From Methylophaga sp. (GTDB taxonomy: Bacteria > Pseudomonadota > Gammaproteobacteria > Nitrosococcales > Methylophagaceae), in the NCBI GenBank assembly GCA_026988435.1, contig JALSLH010000083.1:62001-126000 (forward strand): DNA of 64,000 bases. Direction: 5' to 3'. This document shows, one piece after another, positions 42,210-53,048 of this stretch; positions within the stretch are counted from its first letter, which is position 1; every line of letters starts with the position of its first letter. A program made the translations under genes and the position numbers. The notes beneath the pieces were generated by a model that saw only the letters and a program-made list of their open reading frames with translations, ran no database searches and had not been told where the DNA came from.

Positions 42210-42255
42210 CCCGATACTGTGCTTACGTCACTCCCGATACTGTGCTTACGTCATT
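42210..42255. repeat. Two tandem copies of a 23-bp unit
   Basis: CCCGATACTGTGCTTACGTCACT / CCCGATACTGTGCTTACGTCATT, one mismatch, running into a REP-like copy. Confidence 0.9.
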
Positions 42256-42280
42256 CCCGAGATCTTTTATCGGGAATCTA
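42249..42280. repeat. REP-like palindrome
   Basis: CGTCATTCCCGAGATCTTTTATCGGGAATCTA. Confidence 0.75.
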
Positions 42281-43973: not shown

Positions 43974-44016
43974 TGGGTTTGTATCCCCAGGCCTTGATGC
44001 ATATTTTCTAGCCGTT

Positions 44017-44385
44017 TCAATTACCCGCTAAAAGAGATTCCGCTGGAATACCTAAGTCTTTATGCAAGTTTTTTATCATAGGCAATGTGAGGGGCCGTTT
44101 GCCGTTTAGGATTTCATAAACTCGGTTCGTTCGCCCAATCATGGGCGTTAAATCTTTAGCCGTTAACCCTCTCTGCTCCATCACAAACTTAATTGCTGCA
44201 ATAGGATCAGGAAAATCAATGGGGTAATGTTTACGTTCGTAATCTTCAACTAGCGTAACAAGTACATCTAAGCGGTCACCCTCGTCCGAGCCTAGTTTAG
44301 CCATCATTAAGCCTTCAATTTCTTGAAGTGAATTTTGATAATCATCATTTGTTTTTATTGGATGTATATTCATCGTTATCACCAT
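44017..44385 (-). CDS. higA: HigA-type antitoxin (HTH)
   Basis: FVMEQRGLTAKDLTPMIGRTNRVYEILNGKRPLTLPMIKNLHKDLGIP. Confidence 0.88.
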   Translation of the reverse strand: MVITMNIHPIKTNDDYQNSLQEIEGLMMAKLGSDEGDRLDVLVTLVEDYERKHYPIDFPDPIAAIKFVMEQRGLTAKDLTPMIGRTNRVYEILNGKRPLTLPMIKNLHKDLGIPAESLLAGN

Positions 44386-44687
44386 TAAATTTCTTGTGCG
44401 TCTATTTTATCGTATTGCTTATGTGTTCCGATAAAGCGAATGTAAATGACTTTGTAATCGTAGTTTATCCAAACAATTAAGCGATACTTGTTACCGCTAA
44501 TATTAAAAACAACCCGCCCATCTTTAAGAATACTTGCATTCCCAAAATCAGACTTAACTTTACTTGGGCTTTCCCAATTCGCCTTTAATGCATGACGATA
44601 CCACGCCATTATTGATTCTTTAGCATCATTGTATTCTGATGATTCACCCCAGAAAGCTTTGAGCGTAGACAGTGCAATAATTCTCAT
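44385..44687 (-). CDS. higB: HigB-type mRNA interferase toxin
   Basis: RHALKANWESPSKVKSDFGNASILKDGRVVFNISGNKYRLIVWINYDYKVIYIRFIGTHKQYDKID; abuts higA. Confidence 0.9.
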   Translation of the reverse strand: MRIIALSTLKAFWGESSEYNDAKESIMAWYRHALKANWESPSKVKSDFGNASILKDGRVVFNISGNKYRLIVWINYDYKVIYIRFIGTHKQYDKIDAQEI

Positions 44688-44693
44688 GAATCA

Positions 44694-44715
44694 ATTATAG
44701 TCCCACCTAGGGACT
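44694..44715 (-). promoter_or_regulatory. Candidate autoregulated higBA promoter/operator
   Basis: Palindrome AGTCCC-ACCTA-GGGACT (44699-44715) abutting TATAAT on the minus strand just before higB. Confidence 0.5.
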
Positions 44716-44793
44716 CATGCAAGCTCTAATCTTATCTGCGCCATATATTATTTTTTAATGGAAAAGAAACAAGCGGACTTAATTAAGAAAATT

Positions 44794-44892
44794 AAATAAC
44801 GACCAAGCTCACCAGCTGCCAAAAGTGGTGTGGCTGTAGCGTAGTGAAAGCCGCGCCGCTTTTGGCAGTCTGAGTGCAGCGCCTTGTTATAC
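44794..44892 (-). other. attC-like integron recombination site (attC-1)
   Basis: Minus-strand GTATAACAAGGCG...GGTCGTTATTT; 20-bp arms CTGCCAAAAGTGGTGTGGCT / AGCCGCGCCGCTTTTGGCAG with 3 mismatches; upstream gene stop codon lies in the terminal core. Confidence 0.8.
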
Positions 44893-45162
44893 GTTTTTAT
44901 CACCTGCCACCCAGCTATACTTTATTGCATTTACTTCTCTGTCAAATTCTGATTTTGACATGGCTTTATTATTTTTTATTGACTCAAGTAATTTGTTATT
45001 GCTTTTTCCTTCGATTACGGAGGCATAAGCAACATAAAACTTAAAATTTTCTTTTGGTAAAGGGCGTGGGGCAATTAAATATTCTGTTGGCTGTGCGTGA
45101 TTACCAAAGAGCGTAATAACTTCTCTTAGTTTGGCTCTATTTGTTTGAATTCTTATGAACAT
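44887..45162 (-). CDS. Small protein of unknown function, translationally coupled to the MTase
   Basis: 91 aa intact ORF; ATG overlaps MTase stop (TAATG); stop lies in attC-1. Confidence 0.7.
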   Translation of the reverse strand: MFIRIQTNRAKLREVITLFGNHAQPTEYLIAPRPLPKENFKFYVAYASVIEGKSNNKLLESIKNNKAMSKSEFDREVNAIKYSWVAGDKNV

Positions 45163-46088
45163 TAAAATAGCTCTTCCTGCTCAACTTCTTTCGAATTATT
45201 TTTTAATGAAATACCATATTTTTCATTTACGGCCTTTTTAAATACCTCTAAAGCATTTTCATGATTTTTTAAAAACCAATTTATATGATTCTCTAAATAT
45301 TCGTCTCTTATTTCAGGTTTTCTAAGGTCGTTTGGTACTCGTTCCATTCTTGGATCGACACTATCAAACCCAGCAAAAGGTTCTTTGAGCCTTAAATTTG
45401 TCATTTCAATATAATCGGGGTTTAATTCAAACCCTATCGCATTACGATTTAATTGTTGGCATACACGCATAGTAGTACCGCTACCAGAAAATGGATCTAA
45501 AACGATACCATTTTCATTACTTGATGCCATAACCATTCTTTCTATAATGCCCTCTGGCTTTTGTGTAGGATGGTTTTGTCTATTTGGATTACAATAATGA
45601 ACATGAGAAAACTTCCAAACATCCCCTGGGTTTGCACCACGCATGTTATTTCTGGAACGGTAGTATTTTTGAGGTACTCGCACATTATCTAAATTAAACG
45701 TGAATTTGCTGGATTTAGTAAACATCAAAATATCATCGTGTCTTGGTGAAAAACCTTTGGTTTTTCCTAAGCCTTGAGTGTAATGCCAAACAATCCAGCT
45801 ATTGAAAAATAACTCTAAATCTCTATCTAGAATATCGTATAAATAAGATATGAACCTAACACCCATAAACACATATATAGTGCCTGTTGGTTTAAGAACC
45901 CTTTTTGCTTCGGATAACCACGATTTTGTAAAATCAATATATTCATCGAATCCTTTTAAATCATGATTATTCCCGTAATTTTTTCCGAGGTTATAAGGGG
46001 GGTCTGCAACAACAAGATCAACTGATGAGCTTTTTATTTCCTTAAATAGCTCGATAGCATCACCACAACGTAAATCAATTTTAGACAT
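45162..46088 (-). CDS. Type II-like DNA methyltransferase (N6-A or N4-C, beta-class motif order)
   Basis: VVADPPYNLGKNYG near N-terminus and VLDPFSGSGTTMRVCQQLNRNAIGFELNPDY later. Confidence 0.93.
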   Translation of the reverse strand: MSKIDLRCGDAIELFKEIKSSSVDLVVADPPYNLGKNYGNNHDLKGFDEYIDFTKSWLSEAKRVLKPTGTIYVFMGVRFISYLYDILDRDLELFFNSWIVWHYTQGLGKTKGFSPRHDDILMFTKSSKFTFNLDNVRVPQKYYRSRNNMRGANPGDVWKFSHVHYCNPNRQNHPTQKPEGIIERMVMASSNENGIVLDPFSGSGTTMRVCQQLNRNAIGFELNPDYIEMTNLRLKEPFAGFDSVDPRMERVPNDLRKPEIRDEYLENHINWFLKNHENALEVFKKAVNEKYGISLKNNSKEVEQEELF

Positions 46089-46856
46089 CTATTTAATCCA
46101 CCCATTTTTCTCTGCATATTCAAGCCACTGATCGTAACCTTTTTTAGAAGCAATGAATTTTTTGTCAAGTAATTGACAAAACTCCCATGCAGTACGAGTT
46201 TCGATTGTTACATAATGAATATCCCTGATCTGAATTTGCCCTGTACCAAGTGCAGGATTGTAGCTTATGTCTGAATTTGATAAATACTTTAGATCGTAGG
46301 CATTAAAATCAACAACCTCCATAATACCCATCATCATTTTTGTTTTTTTATCTCTTGTACTAGAAACGCTATGTTTTATCGAAAGAACTATAAATATATA
46401 GTCGGGATCTTGAACATATGCCGATCGGATTCTGGCAAAAGATGTAATATTGGGTGATTTTCCACTATTAGCTATATCTTTTGAAGTTGCTTTCACATCA
46501 ACATGACTTGTAACAGAAGAACTTCTTTTTCTTGTTTTTTTAAACTGTAAAATAACATCAGCCATGTTGAGTCTTTCCCCGGCCTCAACATTTATAAGCT
46601 CATAAGTATTCTTTCCATCTTCAAGAGATTCTGTAAATATCTCGAATGCCCATGCTTCTACAAATGGACCTGCGATTTTATTCACATTTTCCATAGGTAT
46701 GCCCAGCTTCAAATTGGTGTTTATAATTATTTTGTTTCGCCCAGAATCCATTGCATCTTTCATAATTGACTCAATGGACTGAACCACAAAATTTGAACAC
46801 TCTTCATAGTCCTTAGACTCTATGGGCTTTTTTAAATCAAGTTTTTCATAAGGCAT
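46089..46856 (-). CDS. Putative type II restriction endonuclease paired with the MTase
   Basis: Directly upstream of MTase; RLNMADVILQFK...HVDVKATSKD is compatible with a PD-(D/E)XK-like core; strong synteny. Confidence 0.7.
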   Translation of the reverse strand: MPYEKLDLKKPIESKDYEECSNFVVQSIESIMKDAMDSGRNKIIINTNLKLGIPMENVNKIAGPFVEAWAFEIFTESLEDGKNTYELINVEAGERLNMADVILQFKKTRKRSSSVTSHVDVKATSKDIANSGKSPNITSFARIRSAYVQDPDYIFIVLSIKHSVSSTRDKKTKMMMGIMEVVDFNAYDLKYLSNSDISYNPALGTGQIQIRDIHYVTIETRTAWEFCQLLDKKFIASKKGYDQWLEYAEKNGWIK

Positions 46857-46897
46857 ATAATTATTTCCAGTATTTCTGTTGATTGATTGTTTTTGAC

Positions 46898-46973
46898 GTA
46901 TAACGCCTGCATAACTGGCGTGGAACGAAGCGACAGCGTAGTGGAACGTCCACGTTTATGCACTTGTTAGAAC
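46898..46973 (-). other. attC-like integron recombination site (attC-2)
   Basis: Minus-strand TTCTAACAAGTGCATAAACGTGGA...TCCACGCCAGTTATGCAGGCGTTATAC; complementary TGCATAA and CGTGGA blocks with extrahelical bases. Confidence 0.85.
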
Positions 46974-46975
46974 GT

Positions 46976-47299
46976 TTATTTTGGGGTGTAGTTTGCTTCT
47001 GGCCATAGCTCATTAATTTCGTCCGCCTGTTGTTGCGCACTAAACCTTTCCCAAGTTATACCATTAACATCTTTTTCTTCACTAAAATTTGATGCTTCGT
47101 CATCTTCCCAGCCTAAGTGCCTTAATTCACCTGGCGTGCATGATTGATCTTGTCTTATTGAAACATTTAATGAGTCTGTTCGCCAAAGTGCATATTCGTT
47201 TTTTACATATGAGCATGGCTCCATACCAAGGCGCACACTATAATCTTTAATTGTTTCTTCAATTATATTTGTAGAAATGGCGATATGTAATTTCTTCAC
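46976..47299 (-). CDS. Cassette-encoded small protein, possible VOC/glyoxalase-like fold
   Basis: HIAISTNIIEETIKDYSVRLGMEPCSYVKNEYALWRTDSLNVSIRQ; GTG start preceded by AAGGA, stop adjacent to attC-2. Confidence 0.65.
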   Translation of the reverse strand: MKKLHIAISTNIIEETIKDYSVRLGMEPCSYVKNEYALWRTDSLNVSIRQDQSCTPGELRHLGWEDDEASNFSEEKDVNGITWERFSAQQQADEINELWPEANYTPK

Positions 47300-47314
47300 T
47301 ATTTTTCCTTTTGA

Positions 47315-47445
47315 GTTCTAACGCCAAATTCAGTGGCCGCTGGCAGATATAAGATGAACTCTGCAAACACACTGAACTTTGATGTAAAAGTGACCTCTGA
47401 TAAAAACTGCGCTGCCAGCGGTCGACTGGAATTTATTGTTATAAC
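47315..47445 (-). other. attC-like integron recombination site with long loop (attC-3)
   Basis: GTTCTAACGCCAAATTCAGTGGCCGCTGGCAG ... CTGCCAGCGGTCGACTGGAATTTATTGTTATAAC, imperfect inverted arms and terminal cores. Confidence 0.82.
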
Positions 47446-47813
47446 CGTTCATTTTCTATTCTGTGTAATTCTTGAATATCTGGCTCTGGAAAATTTTCAC
47501 AAACTATATATTCTTGAAGGTTTAACACATTAACTTTTTGTAATGCTAACAGCTCTTCAACGGCTCTTTTTTCAACGCTTATTTTCCCTGAACCTGCCCA
47601 GTGACGATTACTTCCTTTTTGTTTAATCCCTGAGATCCAGTATTCATTTCCATTCGAAAAATCAAAGTAATTACCCGAAACACCATGCCCCTTTTTTAAA
47701 GACATTTGATTAAAATAGATTGTTGAACCGCTACGTGACTCTTTAATAGTAGCAATCCAAGCAGGCCCGGAGTCCCCGAAATCAGATTTTAGTTCAATAT
47801 ACTTAATCATCAT
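47439..47813 (-). CDS. Cassette-encoded conserved small protein of unknown function
   Basis: MMIKYIELKSDFGDSGPAWIATIKESRSGSTIYFNQMSLKKGHGVSGNYFDFSNGNEYWISGIKQKGSNRHWAGSGKI; stop lies within attC-3. Confidence 0.72.
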   Translation of the reverse strand: MMIKYIELKSDFGDSGPAWIATIKESRSGSTIYFNQMSLKKGHGVSGNYFDFSNGNEYWISGIKQKGSNRHWAGSGKISVEKRAVEELLALQKVNVLNLQEYIVCENFPEPDIQELHRIENERL

Positions 47814-47827
47814 TTAGATATTTTGAG

Positions 47828-47985
47828 GTTATAACAATTATTATACACCCCTAAAAGGTGCATAAAAAACAACCTAAAGGTGTATAACCAAATTTAAATA
47901 TTATTTTACCCATATAAAACAATCCATTAGTAAATGTAAGTGCACCTTTAGTTAAAAGTAAATACACCTTGTGAAGTTGTTAGAC
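47828..47985 (-). other. Possible fourth attC-like site or array edge (attC-4)
   Basis: Minus-strand GTCTAACAACTTC ... AATTGTTATAAC with shared CTAAAAGGTGCA/ACTAAAGGTGCA blocks; weaker arm pairing than the other sites. Confidence 0.45.
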
Positions 47986-48085
47986 TAATTTTGTTCAAAA
48001 TGTCGTTTTAAAGCATTCTAGCATGTGTGTTGAGAAAAGTTATGCCGACTGCGATAGGCGGTCTAGTCTGTTGATGAAAAAATCC

Positions 48086-48118
48086 CCGGTTAACGCATGT
48101 TTTCGTTAACCGAGGTAT
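48086..48118 (-). terminator. Terminator-like hairpin downstream of creD
   Basis: CGGTTAACG-CATGTTTT-CGTTAACCG with T/A-rich flanks. Confidence 0.6.
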
Positions 48119-48124
48119 TTAATA

Positions 48125-49645
48125 TTATGCCTTTTCTGAACCAATATTACGCGTCAAAAACATCATCACCGCTAGCACTATAAGCAACAGTACGGTGCCA
48201 CCCATTAAGGCATGATCTTCTAGTTTTAGTAATGAATACAACATAAAATAGAGCCCTGATAGTAATGTTGCGATTAGACCTGTTCGTCCTATACTTCTTA
48301 ATGCGGCATAGGCATAGAGGCTAATCATGCTAATGATGATGCCGGCGGCAGATAGGTAGGCGGTGAAAAAGCCGGTTTGTTCAGCTAATGACAATAGCGT
48401 TAAATAGAACATAGAAAGTGCTAGACCAATCATGCCATATTGCACGATATGTAGGCGCTTGCCGATGCCTAATTCAAATAAAAGAAACGTGATGTAGGTC
48501 AGAATAAAGAACAGTGAACCGTATTTAATGGCACGGGTTATTTTTGAATACAGTGAATCGGCTTCAAATAAATTAACACCGGCTGTAAATTCTTCAACAT
48601 CGAAGTTTTGAGTTTCTAATGTCCATAGTTGGGGGTAACTTCTGGCTAGATGTGGCACTGACCAGTTTGCCTTAAAGCCTTCATCGCTGATGGTGGGTTC
48701 TTCTGGCAGGACATTGCCTTGGAAGCTAGGATGTGGCCAGTTAGAGCTAATGGTCACATTTGTTGTTTTACCAAAAGGACTAAAATAAAAGCCGTTGCTA
48801 CCATTAATGTTCATCGTTAGTGAGAAGTTAAAACTATCTTGTTGAGACTCTGTGCCTTCGGCTGGAATAGTGAGCGGGGCGTGAAAGCCATTAACAATGG
48901 TTTTGCTTAATTTAGTGCTGGGTCCAAAGTCGACTTGTTGATGTGCTGTATTAGGCATGTTCCACGATAAACTTGAAATTTTATTAATGGCTTGCGTGTC
49001 TGATATTCCTAGGGTAAACCATGCTTTATCCCAATGGATTTCATCGATGTGTTTCGATAGGCTGCTGATATCTGGGCGCTTAAAGTTACCTGATATTTTA
49101 ACATCGGCAGTATAAACCAAGGCTTCATAAAGACTTCGCTTGCGAGTTGTTGAAAGCAGGTTTGCATCGATATTTAAATCTTCAGGCAATATAATGGCTG
49201 TGCGTTCATTGTAATGCGTTTTGTCTACTTTTCGTTCAAAACCATTGGCATCTGTGAGCACTTTTACGGTGGTGATTTTTTCTGTGTAGGGCACGATTAA
49301 TACTGGGCCTTGTAGGTTTTGTTGTTGCCCCCAAGTGCTCGAAATATCATGCAATACATCGTGGTAGAGTGCATTACGTTCATTGACTATATCGGCCACC
49401 ATGCCGAGTGGAATATTCATTAAGCCCACTAACACGGCAATTAAACCAAATCGAAAAATAAGCGAGCTATTGAGCCGCTTAAAATCAGAAAGATAGCTTT
49501 TTACGTTGTTTCCTTCTGTCCTCATACCTTCTGTTGAGGGCTTTAAGAATCCGATCTTTCGCGCCATAAAGATAGCAAAAAAGACAATTCCTGCCATTCC
49601 TGCCAGTAAAAATAAAAGCCCAATCAATCCAAATATAATTTCCAT
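48125..49645 (-). CDS. creD: Inner membrane protein CreD
   Basis: RFGLIAVLVGLMNIPLGMVADIVNERNALYHDVLHDISSTWGQQQNLQGPVLIVPY; C-terminal TM bundle. Confidence 0.92.
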   Translation of the reverse strand: MEIIFGLIGLLFLLAGMAGIVFFAIFMARKIGFLKPSTEGMRTEGNNVKSYLSDFKRLNSSLIFRFGLIAVLVGLMNIPLGMVADIVNERNALYHDVLHDISSTWGQQQNLQGPVLIVPYTEKITTVKVLTDANGFERKVDKTHYNERTAIILPEDLNIDANLLSTTRKRSLYEALVYTADVKISGNFKRPDISSLSKHIDEIHWDKAWFTLGISDTQAINKISSLSWNMPNTAHQQVDFGPSTKLSKTIVNGFHAPLTIPAEGTESQQDSFNFSLTMNINGSNGFYFSPFGKTTNVTISSNWPHPSFQGNVLPEEPTISDEGFKANWSVPHLARSYPQLWTLETQNFDVEEFTAGVNLFEADSLYSKITRAIKYGSLFFILTYITFLLFELGIGKRLHIVQYGMIGLALSMFYLTLLSLAEQTGFFTAYLSAAGIIISMISLYAYAALRSIGRTGLIATLLSGLYFMLYSLLKLEDHALMGGTVLLLIVLAVMMFLTRNIGSEKA

Positions 49646-49770
49646 TATTTCACCTTGTGTCAGTTGTTAAAAAGTAACGGTTACAAGTGTAGGTGTTAGA
49701 TATGGAGTTCTTGTGGTGTAAATAAGGAGTTTTTGTGCAGATTTGATTTTCTATTGAATGTTTGGGATAG

Positions 49771-49801
49771 AGATCCCGGCTAAAAGCCTACCGGGATGAC
49801 G
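49771..49801. repeat. REP-like palindrome
   Basis: AGATCCCGGCTAAAAGCCTACCGGGATGACG. Confidence 0.75.
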
Positions 49802-49819
49802 AAAACAAACTGAACTATC

Positions 49820-51373
49820 TTATCCAGAGTTCAGGGTAATAATAAAATGAGCACCAATGTCAGTGGGTTCAGCATGGATAGTGCCTCTCCATGCTTTAAG
49901 CGTAGATTCAATAATACCTAAACCCAGGCCTGTGCCACCCGTGTCACGGCGAGTAGTGAAAAAAGGTGTAAAAATACGGCTTCGATTAGCAGGTGAAATG
50001 CCGGTGCCATTATCATGGATAGAGAGTTGTAGTTGTTCATCGCTATGGCTCAATTTAATAAGCACTTTATTCGCTTTATGTTGCAGGCTATTGTCGAATA
50101 AATTAGCAAAGACAAGTGTTAATGCCTCGACTGAGACGCTTATATTTTCATCGAGGCTATCATCTAAGATCAGCTTAAGTTGTTTTGCTTTATAAATAGC
50201 TTGTAACTGGTTTAAAACCTGCAAAATATTACAGGTTTCTGTTGATGCTTGCAGTGCATCCGCTCTAGCCTGTTGTAGTAGACGTGTGACCAGATTTTCT
50301 AATCGTTTGGTATCTTGTTGAAGATTATCCAAAAAGCGCTGGCGCTGCTCAACGGGCATCTCATCTAAATGATCTTGTAAAAGTTCTAATGTGCCTTGTA
50401 TTGATGTGAGCGGGGTTTTAAATTCGTGCGACACATGTGCTGCAAATTGCTCAATATATTGCGTGCGTTCATGCACTATTTGTGACATTTCAGCAAAGCT
50501 GTTTGACAGTTCAGCTAGCTCATAGGTGCCAGGTTGTTGAATGGCATTAATTGTTTCAACTTCGCCTCGTGTTACTTTTTTTGTTTGGTCGATTAATTCT
50601 CGAATAGGTCGTGATAAACGCGATGAGATAAATAAGACGATTAGGCTAGTGACACCTAGCAATAAAAGGGCAATAAAAAATACCCGGCCTTTAATGCCAT
50701 CAAGGTGTTTTAATATGTTTTGAGGTGTGCGAGATAGGTAGACCACGCCGTAAACACGACCTTGATCGATGATCGGAAAGGCGGTGAACACTCGAATTCC
50801 AGTGCCACGGCTCAGTGATGCAAGGGGAGGTTGCGCTTGATCAGATATCCGCTGACGCAATACAGAACGGTATTTGCCTTTTAATGCGGCTTGAACTTCT
50901 TCAATGTGAGCAAATGACAAGCCTATTTCTTCACGCCCCGCGATGACGATGCCATTTTCATCAAGAATTCTGATCCCTGCCAAGGTAAATTGTTGGGTAT
51001 TACGCAAGATAGTTTGCATTTTTTGCCCAGCTTGTTTTGCTACTAGATTTTCAGATGCTGGACTATCTAAAACTATTCCATCGGGGCGAGGAGGCAATGT
51101 TTGTTGTTTTGATAGATCTAATTCAGGTTTGATAGGGGTGTAATGACCACTTAATAAAGTGTGGTTCTTATTAATTAATTGGCGGTATACAGCTGCAAAA
51201 GCAGCCGACTGCGTGATTAGCTCTAATTCAGTCTTTTGAACGAGCTCATTTTCATAAAAACGAAAGAAATATAAACTGCCGAGAGGTAAAAGTAATATGG
51301 ATAACATGAGCAGTAATAAGATAGTGCGAAGCCGAAATAGTCGCTTGCTCTGAGGTGTTGCGTTTATATGCAT
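49820..51373 (-). CDS. creC: Sensor histidine kinase (CreC-like)
   Basis: HAMP, HVSHEFKTPLTSIQGTLELL, FTTRRDTGGTGLGLGI; between creB-like and creD. Confidence 0.82.
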   Translation of the reverse strand: MHINATPQSKRLFRLRTILLLLMLSILLLPLGSLYFFRFYENELVQKTELELITQSAAFAAVYRQLINKNHTLLSGHYTPIKPELDLSKQQTLPPRPDGIVLDSPASENLVAKQAGQKMQTILRNTQQFTLAGIRILDENGIVIAGREEIGLSFAHIEEVQAALKGKYRSVLRQRISDQAQPPLASLSRGTGIRVFTAFPIIDQGRVYGVVYLSRTPQNILKHLDGIKGRVFFIALLLLGVTSLIVLFISSRLSRPIRELIDQTKKVTRGEVETINAIQQPGTYELAELSNSFAEMSQIVHERTQYIEQFAAHVSHEFKTPLTSIQGTLELLQDHLDEMPVEQRQRFLDNLQQDTKRLENLVTRLLQQARADALQASTETCNILQVLNQLQAIYKAKQLKLILDDSLDENISVSVEALTLVFANLFDNSLQHKANKVLIKLSHSDEQLQLSIHDNGTGISPANRSRIFTPFFTTRRDTGGTGLGLGIIESTLKAWRGTIHAEPTDIGAHFIITLNSG

Positions 51374-52053
51374 GCGCTTAGTTTATAGCCAACACCGTGT
51401 TGAGTCTCGATAATATTGTTACAGCCTGCTGTTGAGAATTTTTGACGAATATGACGGATATGACTATCAATAGTGCGGTCACTGACCACAATATTATGTT
51501 GATAAGCACCATCCATAATGGCATTTCGACTATAAATGATTTTAGGGTTGTTAATCATTTGAGCTAAGATTGAAAACTCTACGGCAGTGAGTGAAATATC
51601 TTTTTCATCCCAGCGAACAGTGTGTTGTTCGATATTGATCTGTAATCGACCATGAATTAGGTCTTTTTCATCCGCATCGCCGACTTTTTGAGCTTGTGTA
51701 CGTTTTAGAATGGCTTTAATCCGGGCAACTAACTCTCTAGGGCTAAAAGGTTTGGTGACATAATCATCACCGCCAATCTCAAGCCCGAGAATGCGGTCAA
51801 TTTCATCATCACGAGATGATAAAAATAAAATGGGAATATCTGATATTTTACGGATTTCTCGGCAACACTCTAGCCCGTCCATTTCAGGCATATTTATATC
51901 TAAAACGATTAAGTCGAAAGACGATTGTTTTAACAGCGTGATCGCTTGTTGGCCATGAGTCGCATTGCTGACCCGTAAGTCAGCTTTTTCAAGAGCAAAA
52001 TTGATGACTTCGCGAATATGTAAATCATCATCTACGATTAGAATATTTGCCAT
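51364..52053 (-). CDS. creB: OmpR-family response regulator (CreB-like)
   Basis: Receiver IVLDINMPEMDG and winged-helix GVGYKLSA C-terminus. Confidence 0.85.
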   Translation of the reverse strand: MANILIVDDDLHIREVINFALEKADLRVSNATHGQQAITLLKQSSFDLIVLDINMPEMDGLECCREIRKISDIPILFLSSRDDEIDRILGLEIGGDDYVTKPFSPRELVARIKAILKRTQAQKVGDADEKDLIHGRLQINIEQHTVRWDEKDISLTAVEFSILAQMINNPKIIYSRNAIMDGAYQHNIVVSDRTIDSHIRHIRQKFSTAGCNNIIETQHGVGYKLSACI

Positions 52054-52061
52054 GAATTCTA

Positions 52062-53048
52062 CTAATTTGCCCGAATAAATAATTGTGCTTTTTTCATTAA
52101 ATCAAAAGGTGCTGATTGGCTACCCATAAATACTTTTAAAAAGTCATCACTGGTGAGTGGTTGCTCAGGATCGATGCTGATTAGTAATTGATTAGGTTGT
52201 TGGGTAAATTTTATAAGTTCTTCAATCATTAGTGAGTAAACTGGGTTGTAATCGTGCAAGGCAGATTGCATTTGCCGTAATTGAGTAACAGCTTGCTGAG
52301 TTAATTGCTCATTGCTTAAGCCTGTTTGTTTTGACGATACGGTACGTATTTTTTCGATTAAACCCGTATTATTAAAGCTGATAGAAAGGCTATTTAAGGT
52401 GGTTGCTAATAAATCGAGTGTTAAATTATCTGACAGAAGCGACTCATTAGTTTTGACATAGGCTAACCAGCCTGTATTACCTAAAGATACATTCGCTTTA
52501 ATACTAAAATTATCGTTAACAGATTGTTGGATTAGTGCTGTTAGCAGCCCTGTTTTTTCATCCATATTGTAGTTTGCATGAGTAGAAAAATGTAGCTCAT
52601 TTCCCATTACATCGACAAAGGATTGTAAGTCGGGATCATTACCGATCATGTCATCATCTAAAATTATCATTCCATCTGAGATATCGATACTCATTGACAA
52701 GGGTAGGTGATCTTGATTTTTTGCAGAAAATGCCTGCCAGTTTAAACCTGAAATAACGAGTTTACCCAAAACAATATCGGGTTCTTGTTCGTTACCCTGA
52801 ATTTTAAAATTTTGTAGGGTAATGCTACGGGCTAAAGGTGAGGTATCAATTGCATCGTAGCTAAGATCAACACCTTGTATTTTGGCATCTTCGACCATTG
52901 ATAGCATCGATTGTTCAGCTTGTGAGTCGGCTTGATTATCAATATAGGCATAGAGGCCAGCTACGATTAGGGTGATTAATATTATAATTGTGATAATTGA
53001 TACATTGCCGCGCTTTTTATTGATTGCTAATTTCACCGGTAACTCCAT
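52062..53048 (-). CDS. Membrane-anchored AsmA/DUF945-like hypothetical protein
   Basis: N-terminal TM then DLSYDAIDTSPLARSITLQNFKI extracytoplasmic domain. Confidence 0.5.
   Translation of the reverse strand: MELPVKLAINKKRGNVSIITIIILITLIVAGLYAYIDNQADSQAEQSMLSMVEDAKIQGVDLSYDAIDTSPLARSITLQNFKIQGNEQEPDIVLGKLVISGLNWQAFSAKNQDHLPLSMSIDISDGMIILDDDMIGNDPDLQSFVDVMGNELHFSTHANYNMDEKTGLLTALIQQSVNDNFSIKANVSLGNTGWLAYVKTNESLLSDNLTLDLLATTLNSLSISFNNTGLIEKIRTVSSKQTGLSNEQLTQQAVTQLRQMQSALHDYNPVYSLMIEELIKFTQQPNQLLISIDPEQPLTSDDFLKVFMGSQSAPFDLMKKAQLFIRAN

Follow-up and report, generated by a model that had tools for sequence, protein, structure and literature searches.

A three-cassette integron array with its own attI-like leader and no adjacent integrase gene in a Methylophaga genome

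Introduction

The window analysed here, a stretch of 64,000 nucleotides from a Methylophaga genome, contains an array of three integron gene cassettes that is headed by its own attI-like leader and has no integrase gene beside it. We assign a probability of roughly 0.6 to the reading in which such arrays were built by an integron integrase (IntI) acting in trans at dispersed platforms. The window is part of contig C83, which measures 142,557 bases and belongs to a 2.57-Mb MAG, referred to below as G000; this MAG comprises 95 contigs with a completeness of 95.1% and an estimated contamination of 5.94%.

Arrays with at least two attC sites and no intI nearby are known as CALINs, and degradation of integrons has been proposed as their origin (PMC9024848). 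Insertion at attG sites is an alternative origin that is reported to be widespread (Loot et al. 2024, as cited in PMC12444791 and PMC12901181). A sequence-only reading of the window had recognised an integrase-less, CALIN-like array of four attC sites; what it overlooked is the attI-like leader at the start of the array, which recurs before other intI-less arrays. The features of the locus are collected in Table 1.

Table 1. Features of the cassette array and its surroundings (window coordinates)
Feature	Position	Strand	Details
8.1-kb block: higBA, array, leader, creBCD	43974..52062		not present in G014, where yjbQ and the 328-aa gene are neighbours
higBA toxin-antitoxin pair	44017..44687	-	immediately downstream of the array; HigB_toxin E 3.9e-32
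attC of cassette 3	44794..44892	-	99 nt; 37.8 bits (model R1)
Cassette 3	44800..46903	-	2104 bp, restriction-modification; 5' GTTATAC = reverse complement of own R'' GTATAAC
ORF, 91 aa, cassette 3	44887..45162	-	family searches without assignment
Type II DNA methyltransferase, 308 aa, cassette 3	45162..46088	-	N6_N4_Mtase; like RsrI/MboIIA
Type II restriction endonuclease, 255 aa, cassette 3	46089..46856	-	PADLOC REase_II PDLC03492, E 3e-99, full length
attC of cassette 2	46898..46972	-	75 nt; 47.7 bits (model R1)
Cassette 2	46904..47321	-	418 bp; 5' GTTAGAA = reverse complement of own R'' TTCTAAC
ORF, 107 aa, cassette 2	46976..47299	-	weakly VOC-like: ArsI/CadI family, E 7.5e-4, far under cut-off
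attC of cassette 1	47316..47444	-	129 nt; 34.1 bits (model R1)
Cassette 1	47322..47834	-	513 bp: one ORF + attC; G|TT boundaries; 5' GTTATAA = reverse complement of own R'' TTATAAC
ORF, 124 aa, cassette 1	47439..47813	-	no family match
attI-like leader, type B	47835..48039	-	about 200 bp; ends at crossover G (47835) of G|TT
creBCD operon	48125..52053	-	upstream of the leader; placement variable within the genus

attC sites and gene cassettes

The attC sites were scored with a covariance model (R1) of 23 aligned sites, into which the stem structure was written; the training sites came from class 1 and class 2 integrons, Vibrio and intI-linked arrays of sister species, and none from this genome. 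Three sites in the window, lying within 2.7 kb of each other, matched the model with E-values from 2.6e-8 to 3.9e-5 (over 256 kb). Class 1 attC sites of known identity score 33–55 bits under the same model, and the next match after the three sites had 11.4 bits (E 0.87; 30 kb, filters off). By this score all three qualify as attC sites, which are recognised by their R'' and R' boxes and by imperfect arms with extrahelical bases. In free folding, the site at 47316-47444 beats 200 of 200 shuffles, and the site at 46898-46972, folded alone, gives an equivocal z of -0.55. A hand-made attC pattern score was replaced by the covariance model, as it was unspecific and chance scores were as high as those of real sites.

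The three sites that had been proposed from the sequence at 44794-44892, 46898-46973 and 47315-47445 are thus borne out, at 34–48 bits against 11.4 bits for the best chance match, and the proposed positions of gene stops and starts relative to the site cores were confirmed. Under the same covariance model the fourth and weaker site (47828-47985) was not found, giving no match at E <= 10 with filters off. This stretch falls in the type B leader described below: cassette 1 has its 5' boundary at the GTTATAAC end, and the remainder is the recurrent leader.

On the minus strand, the crossover G of G|TT lies at 47835, 47322, 46904 and 44800. In 3 of 3 window cassettes the first seven bases from this G are the exact reverse complement of the R'' box of the cassette's own attC, the complementarity asked of the 5' end (GTTRRRY) of an integron gene cassette. 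The same rule applies genus-wide, with all seven bases matching in 44 of 62 consecutive attC pairs; in 2000 shuffles the number of such pairs averaged 4.6 and never exceeded 12. Such agreement is expected if each cassette was once a closed circle, and we read it as the signature of cassettes that would be excisable.

The endonuclease of cassette 3 is 64% identical to an annotated restriction endonuclease of an Acinetobacter junii plasmid, and judging from similarity it forms an ordinary type II restriction-modification pair with the neighbouring methyltransferase. A probable second restriction-modification cassette of 3.2 kb is present elsewhere in this genome (locus L159, G000:C11, 178-3474); it contains a 568-aa methyltransferase, a 369-aa restriction endonuclease and a 76-aa control protein, and ends in an attC of 41 bits.

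The leader at the head of the array

The 295 bases upstream of cassette 1 were used as a query in the genus and matched C86:19217-19413 and C50:51898-52036 in this genome, as well as G008 and G014. Copies of the leader that they contain (type B) were delimited at C86:19216-19413 and C50:51897-52072 in this genome, on G008:C54, and in G014 on C6, C16 and C22, the last of these partial. The 3' end is conserved as ...ACACCTTTTAGGGGTGTATAATAATTG|TT, and the aligned copies diverge directly after it; all full copies end at G|TT, each with different sequence beyond. Directly after the copies on C86 and C50 come the first cassettes of other intI-less arrays. In position, the leader at 47835-48039 and its copies agree with an attI, as they stand at the head of an array and end at G|TT. 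Among the matches listed for the genomes of the genus, the type B model matched in G000, G008 and G014 only, and in these three genomes no intI was found next to a type B leader. Type B is called attI-like by position and recurrence. One of the three, G014, has type B leaders and arrays and no intI. Entry of the array at a bare attG site had been considered and was set aside once the upstream sequence was found to be recurrent. At L294 (G008:C5, 1890-1950), which is orthologous to the C86 locus, the left ~45 bp of the type B region occur alone, without core or cassettes.

A second leader family, type A, was first taken from a glyQ-linked array on C53 and looks unrelated to type B. In the C95 integron (see below) and in other intI-linked integrons (5–6 genomes), type A is the attI that separates intI from the first cassette. 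It was found in at least 21 of 29 genomes of the genus, with up to at least 17 matches in one genome, and was looked for at the window, where it is absent. In at least 27 of 60 strong copies, an attC lies on the same strand within 4 kb downstream, against 0.5 expected by chance and none on the opposite strand; about half of the strong copies have no downstream attC among the matches listed, and local searches found one in 30 of 44 copies. It is important to note that the leader model (R2) rests on copies identified through similarity, so that its counts describe one family by construction, whereas the link with attC is independent. In both leader families conservation ends exactly at G|TT, and no copy continues beyond.

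Several dispersed type A copies are flanked on the left by the 3' end of a gene, and as read from the translated ends this gene differs between copies, with fructose-bisphosphate aldolase and kdsB as examples. Empty sites exist in sister genomes at the fba and glyQ loci, where the flanking genes are ~60–200 bp apart. Taken together, G000 has type A leaders at least on C95, C53, C93 and C5, type B leaders at least on C83, C86 and C50, and one intact intI. At some dispersed arrays no recognised leader was found, e.g., at G042:C12:196-203 kb.

Several further observations concern the leaders. Carriage of leaders by plasmids or viruses was considered, and no match was found. In G042 (L161, C12, 169-3872) and G006 (L175, C12, 4584-11468), leaders occur in tandem, the 3' part of the upstream host gene is duplicated ahead of each, and cassettes lie between the copies; these tandems were considered as a clue to IntI-driven copying, but they look like long decayed duplications that include the upstream gene and are not decisive. 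G001 and G007 (L246-L252) have several type A leaders with no attC and no full intI found, and genes follow several of these leaders directly at cassette-like spacing. At L168 (G042:C12, ~421.5-423 kb), one more partial leader copy accompanies a broken intI beside a type A leader.

Integron integrase genes

Contig C83, window included, has no match to PF00589 or TIGR02249 and no integron integrase. A full-length IntI is encoded at C95:35895-36839 (TIGR02249, 437 bits, cut-off 265). Next to its gene come a type A attI and then the first cassette, and attC sites run on to the contig end. C95 thus has the complete integron arrangement of intI next to attI and an array, which the window does not. 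The earlier statement that no IntI ORF is present stands for the window and all of C83; the genome itself is not integrase-free. The CALIN assignment fits locally, with at least two attC sites and no intI nearby, and needs amending in that one of the four sites is no attC and a complete integron is present on C95. Between the C95 intI and the working attI lies a second, incomplete type A attI (L014, 10906-10969).

Membership of C95 in this genome is open to doubt given the MAG contamination of 5.9%. A 27-bp palindromic repeat is common to C95 and the window and, among the loci examined, occurs elsewhere only on the intI contig of G008; this supports, short of proof, an origin of C95 and C83 from one organism. 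Genus-wide, full IntI was found in at least 11 of 29 genomes and attC in at least 19 of 29, these genome-wide counts being lower bounds as part of the candidates per genome were scored. In G042, at least 27 attC matches are spread across several contigs, and an intact IntI was not found.

Surroundings of the array

The array was described earlier as lying between yjbQ/higBA and creD, which is correct, with higBA downstream and creBCD upstream. The accompanying description of a core-gene neighbourhood does not hold: ligA-ybiB-yjbQ are kept across the genus, but in G014, the nearest relative at the locus, ~20 bp separate yjbQ from the 328-aa gene that starts at 52062 in the window, and 43974-52062 is missing. 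CreD is present in 3 of 29 genomes and in G014 lies at another chromosomal location; its named relatives are from Gammaproteobacteria bacterium NORP60 and Thiotrichaceae/Cocleimonas. The array is therefore placed in a lineage-specific block, since G014 does not have this segment and CreD is rare and moved.

No match to the attC model was found beyond higBA, and its candidacy as a fourth cassette was dropped, as no attC follows it. The genomes compared are assemblies, each from a different species, and none of them showed the window locus without cassettes; such a locus would read as the leader joined to ...G|TTATTTAATTTTC, upstream of higB. Short palindromic repeats (CATTCCCGAGATCTTTTATCGGGAATC) occur at 42220-42280 of the window and at L014 9790-9890, on two contigs of G000.

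Proposed mechanism and alternatives

We propose that three free circular cassettes were inserted singly beside the leader at 47835-48039, each crossover taking place at G|TT, by an integron integrase acting in trans, away from intI. The leader would be one among several dispersed attI-like platforms in the chromosome, and a likely source of the integrase would be the intact IntI of C95 or its ancestor. We infer that IntI may recombine cassettes into the type B leader. The recurrence of leaders suggests that one integrase elsewhere in the genome, or one no longer present, served many scattered landing sites. Leaders may have spread by repeated integron duplication with loss of intI, by capture and homologous recombination, or by integrase-driven copying.

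The usual account of CALINs is loss of intI from a complete integron, and each intI-less array, the window's included, could be a local integron decayed in this way. Traces of such loss exist: broken intI genes lie by type A leaders in G022:C10 (L202) and G042:C12 (~421.5 kb), N-terminal intI pieces lie by arrays in G006:C40 and G016:C48, and the left end of type A leaders coincides with the position of the intI start codon in intI-linked copies. However, 14 of 18 type A copies examined have no convincing intI remnant within 1.2 kb, and neither has any type B locus, window included. Moreover, several copies have the 3' end of a housekeeping gene on their left, not the same gene in each case, and intI would have to have been lost precisely and independently many times within one genome. 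We therefore regard local decay as an unlikely origin.

It is still less probable that the leader is an ordinary intergenic repeat, such as a promoter or terminator, that became a favoured non-classical attG site and is no true attI. Both leader types contain a hairpin, type B looks terminator-like on a scan and has TATAAT immediately before the crossover, and attG insertion is reported to be widespread, all of which would suit such a repeat. Against this, type A is the same kind of sequence as the attI found beside intI in five genomes, and both families are conserved exactly to G|TT and never beyond in the copies seen. An assembly or binning artefact, in which a fragment of the C95 integron was misjoined into C83, is hardly credible; the MAG is in 95 contigs and C95 ends within its own array, but the window array lies inside a 142-kb contig between higBA and creD, its leader differs from that of C95, and comparable leader-array loci are found in other, independently assembled genomes. 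Insertion in trans at dispersed leaders remains our preferred reading.

Comparison with known systems and significance

The array resembles CALINs as defined in IntegronFinder (PMC9024848) in having at least two attC sites and cassettes with no adjacent intI. It differs in that CALINs are usually described by attC alone, whereas a recurrent attI-like leader heads this array. The Xanthomonas CALINs at seven conserved loci are also integrase-less arrays at fixed places away from intI, and their conserved loci fit poorly with random attG insertion; the parts of that report consulted mention no dispersed attI copies, whereas here leaders mark the loci (PMC12444791). With the sedentary chromosomal integron on C95, the window shares attC architecture and G|TT crossovers, but the intI and type A attI of C95 are both missing there. 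In a known prophage case, an attI heads an intI-less array and the genome also has an intact integron; that case is single, whereas here there are two leader families with up to at least 17 copies per genome, genus-wide.

Cassettes are reportedly also put outside the integron by IntI through attG insertions (Loot et al. 2024). The window array is similar in the location of its cassettes outside the integron and in the G|TT crossover; attG sites share little sequence, whereas the leaders are conserved over 100–200 bp up to the crossover. In the open-access literature searched, we came across no description of a chromosome with many attI-like copies.

For the genus as a whole, we see about even odds that the integron is a distributed system, with one (or a lost) integrase and many chromosomal attI platforms, which belong to at least two families and each gather their own cassettes in trans; its CALINs would then be satellite arrays and neither the remains of decayed integrons nor products of random attG insertion. 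The origin of CALINs is debated between integron decay and attG insertion, and attI-like leaders heading intI-less arrays offer a third, directly testable origin. Such leaders would explain the conserved loci of these arrays within a genus, and a bacterium whose many sites share one integrase could scatter defence cassettes, here restriction-modification, around its chromosome and beyond a single array.
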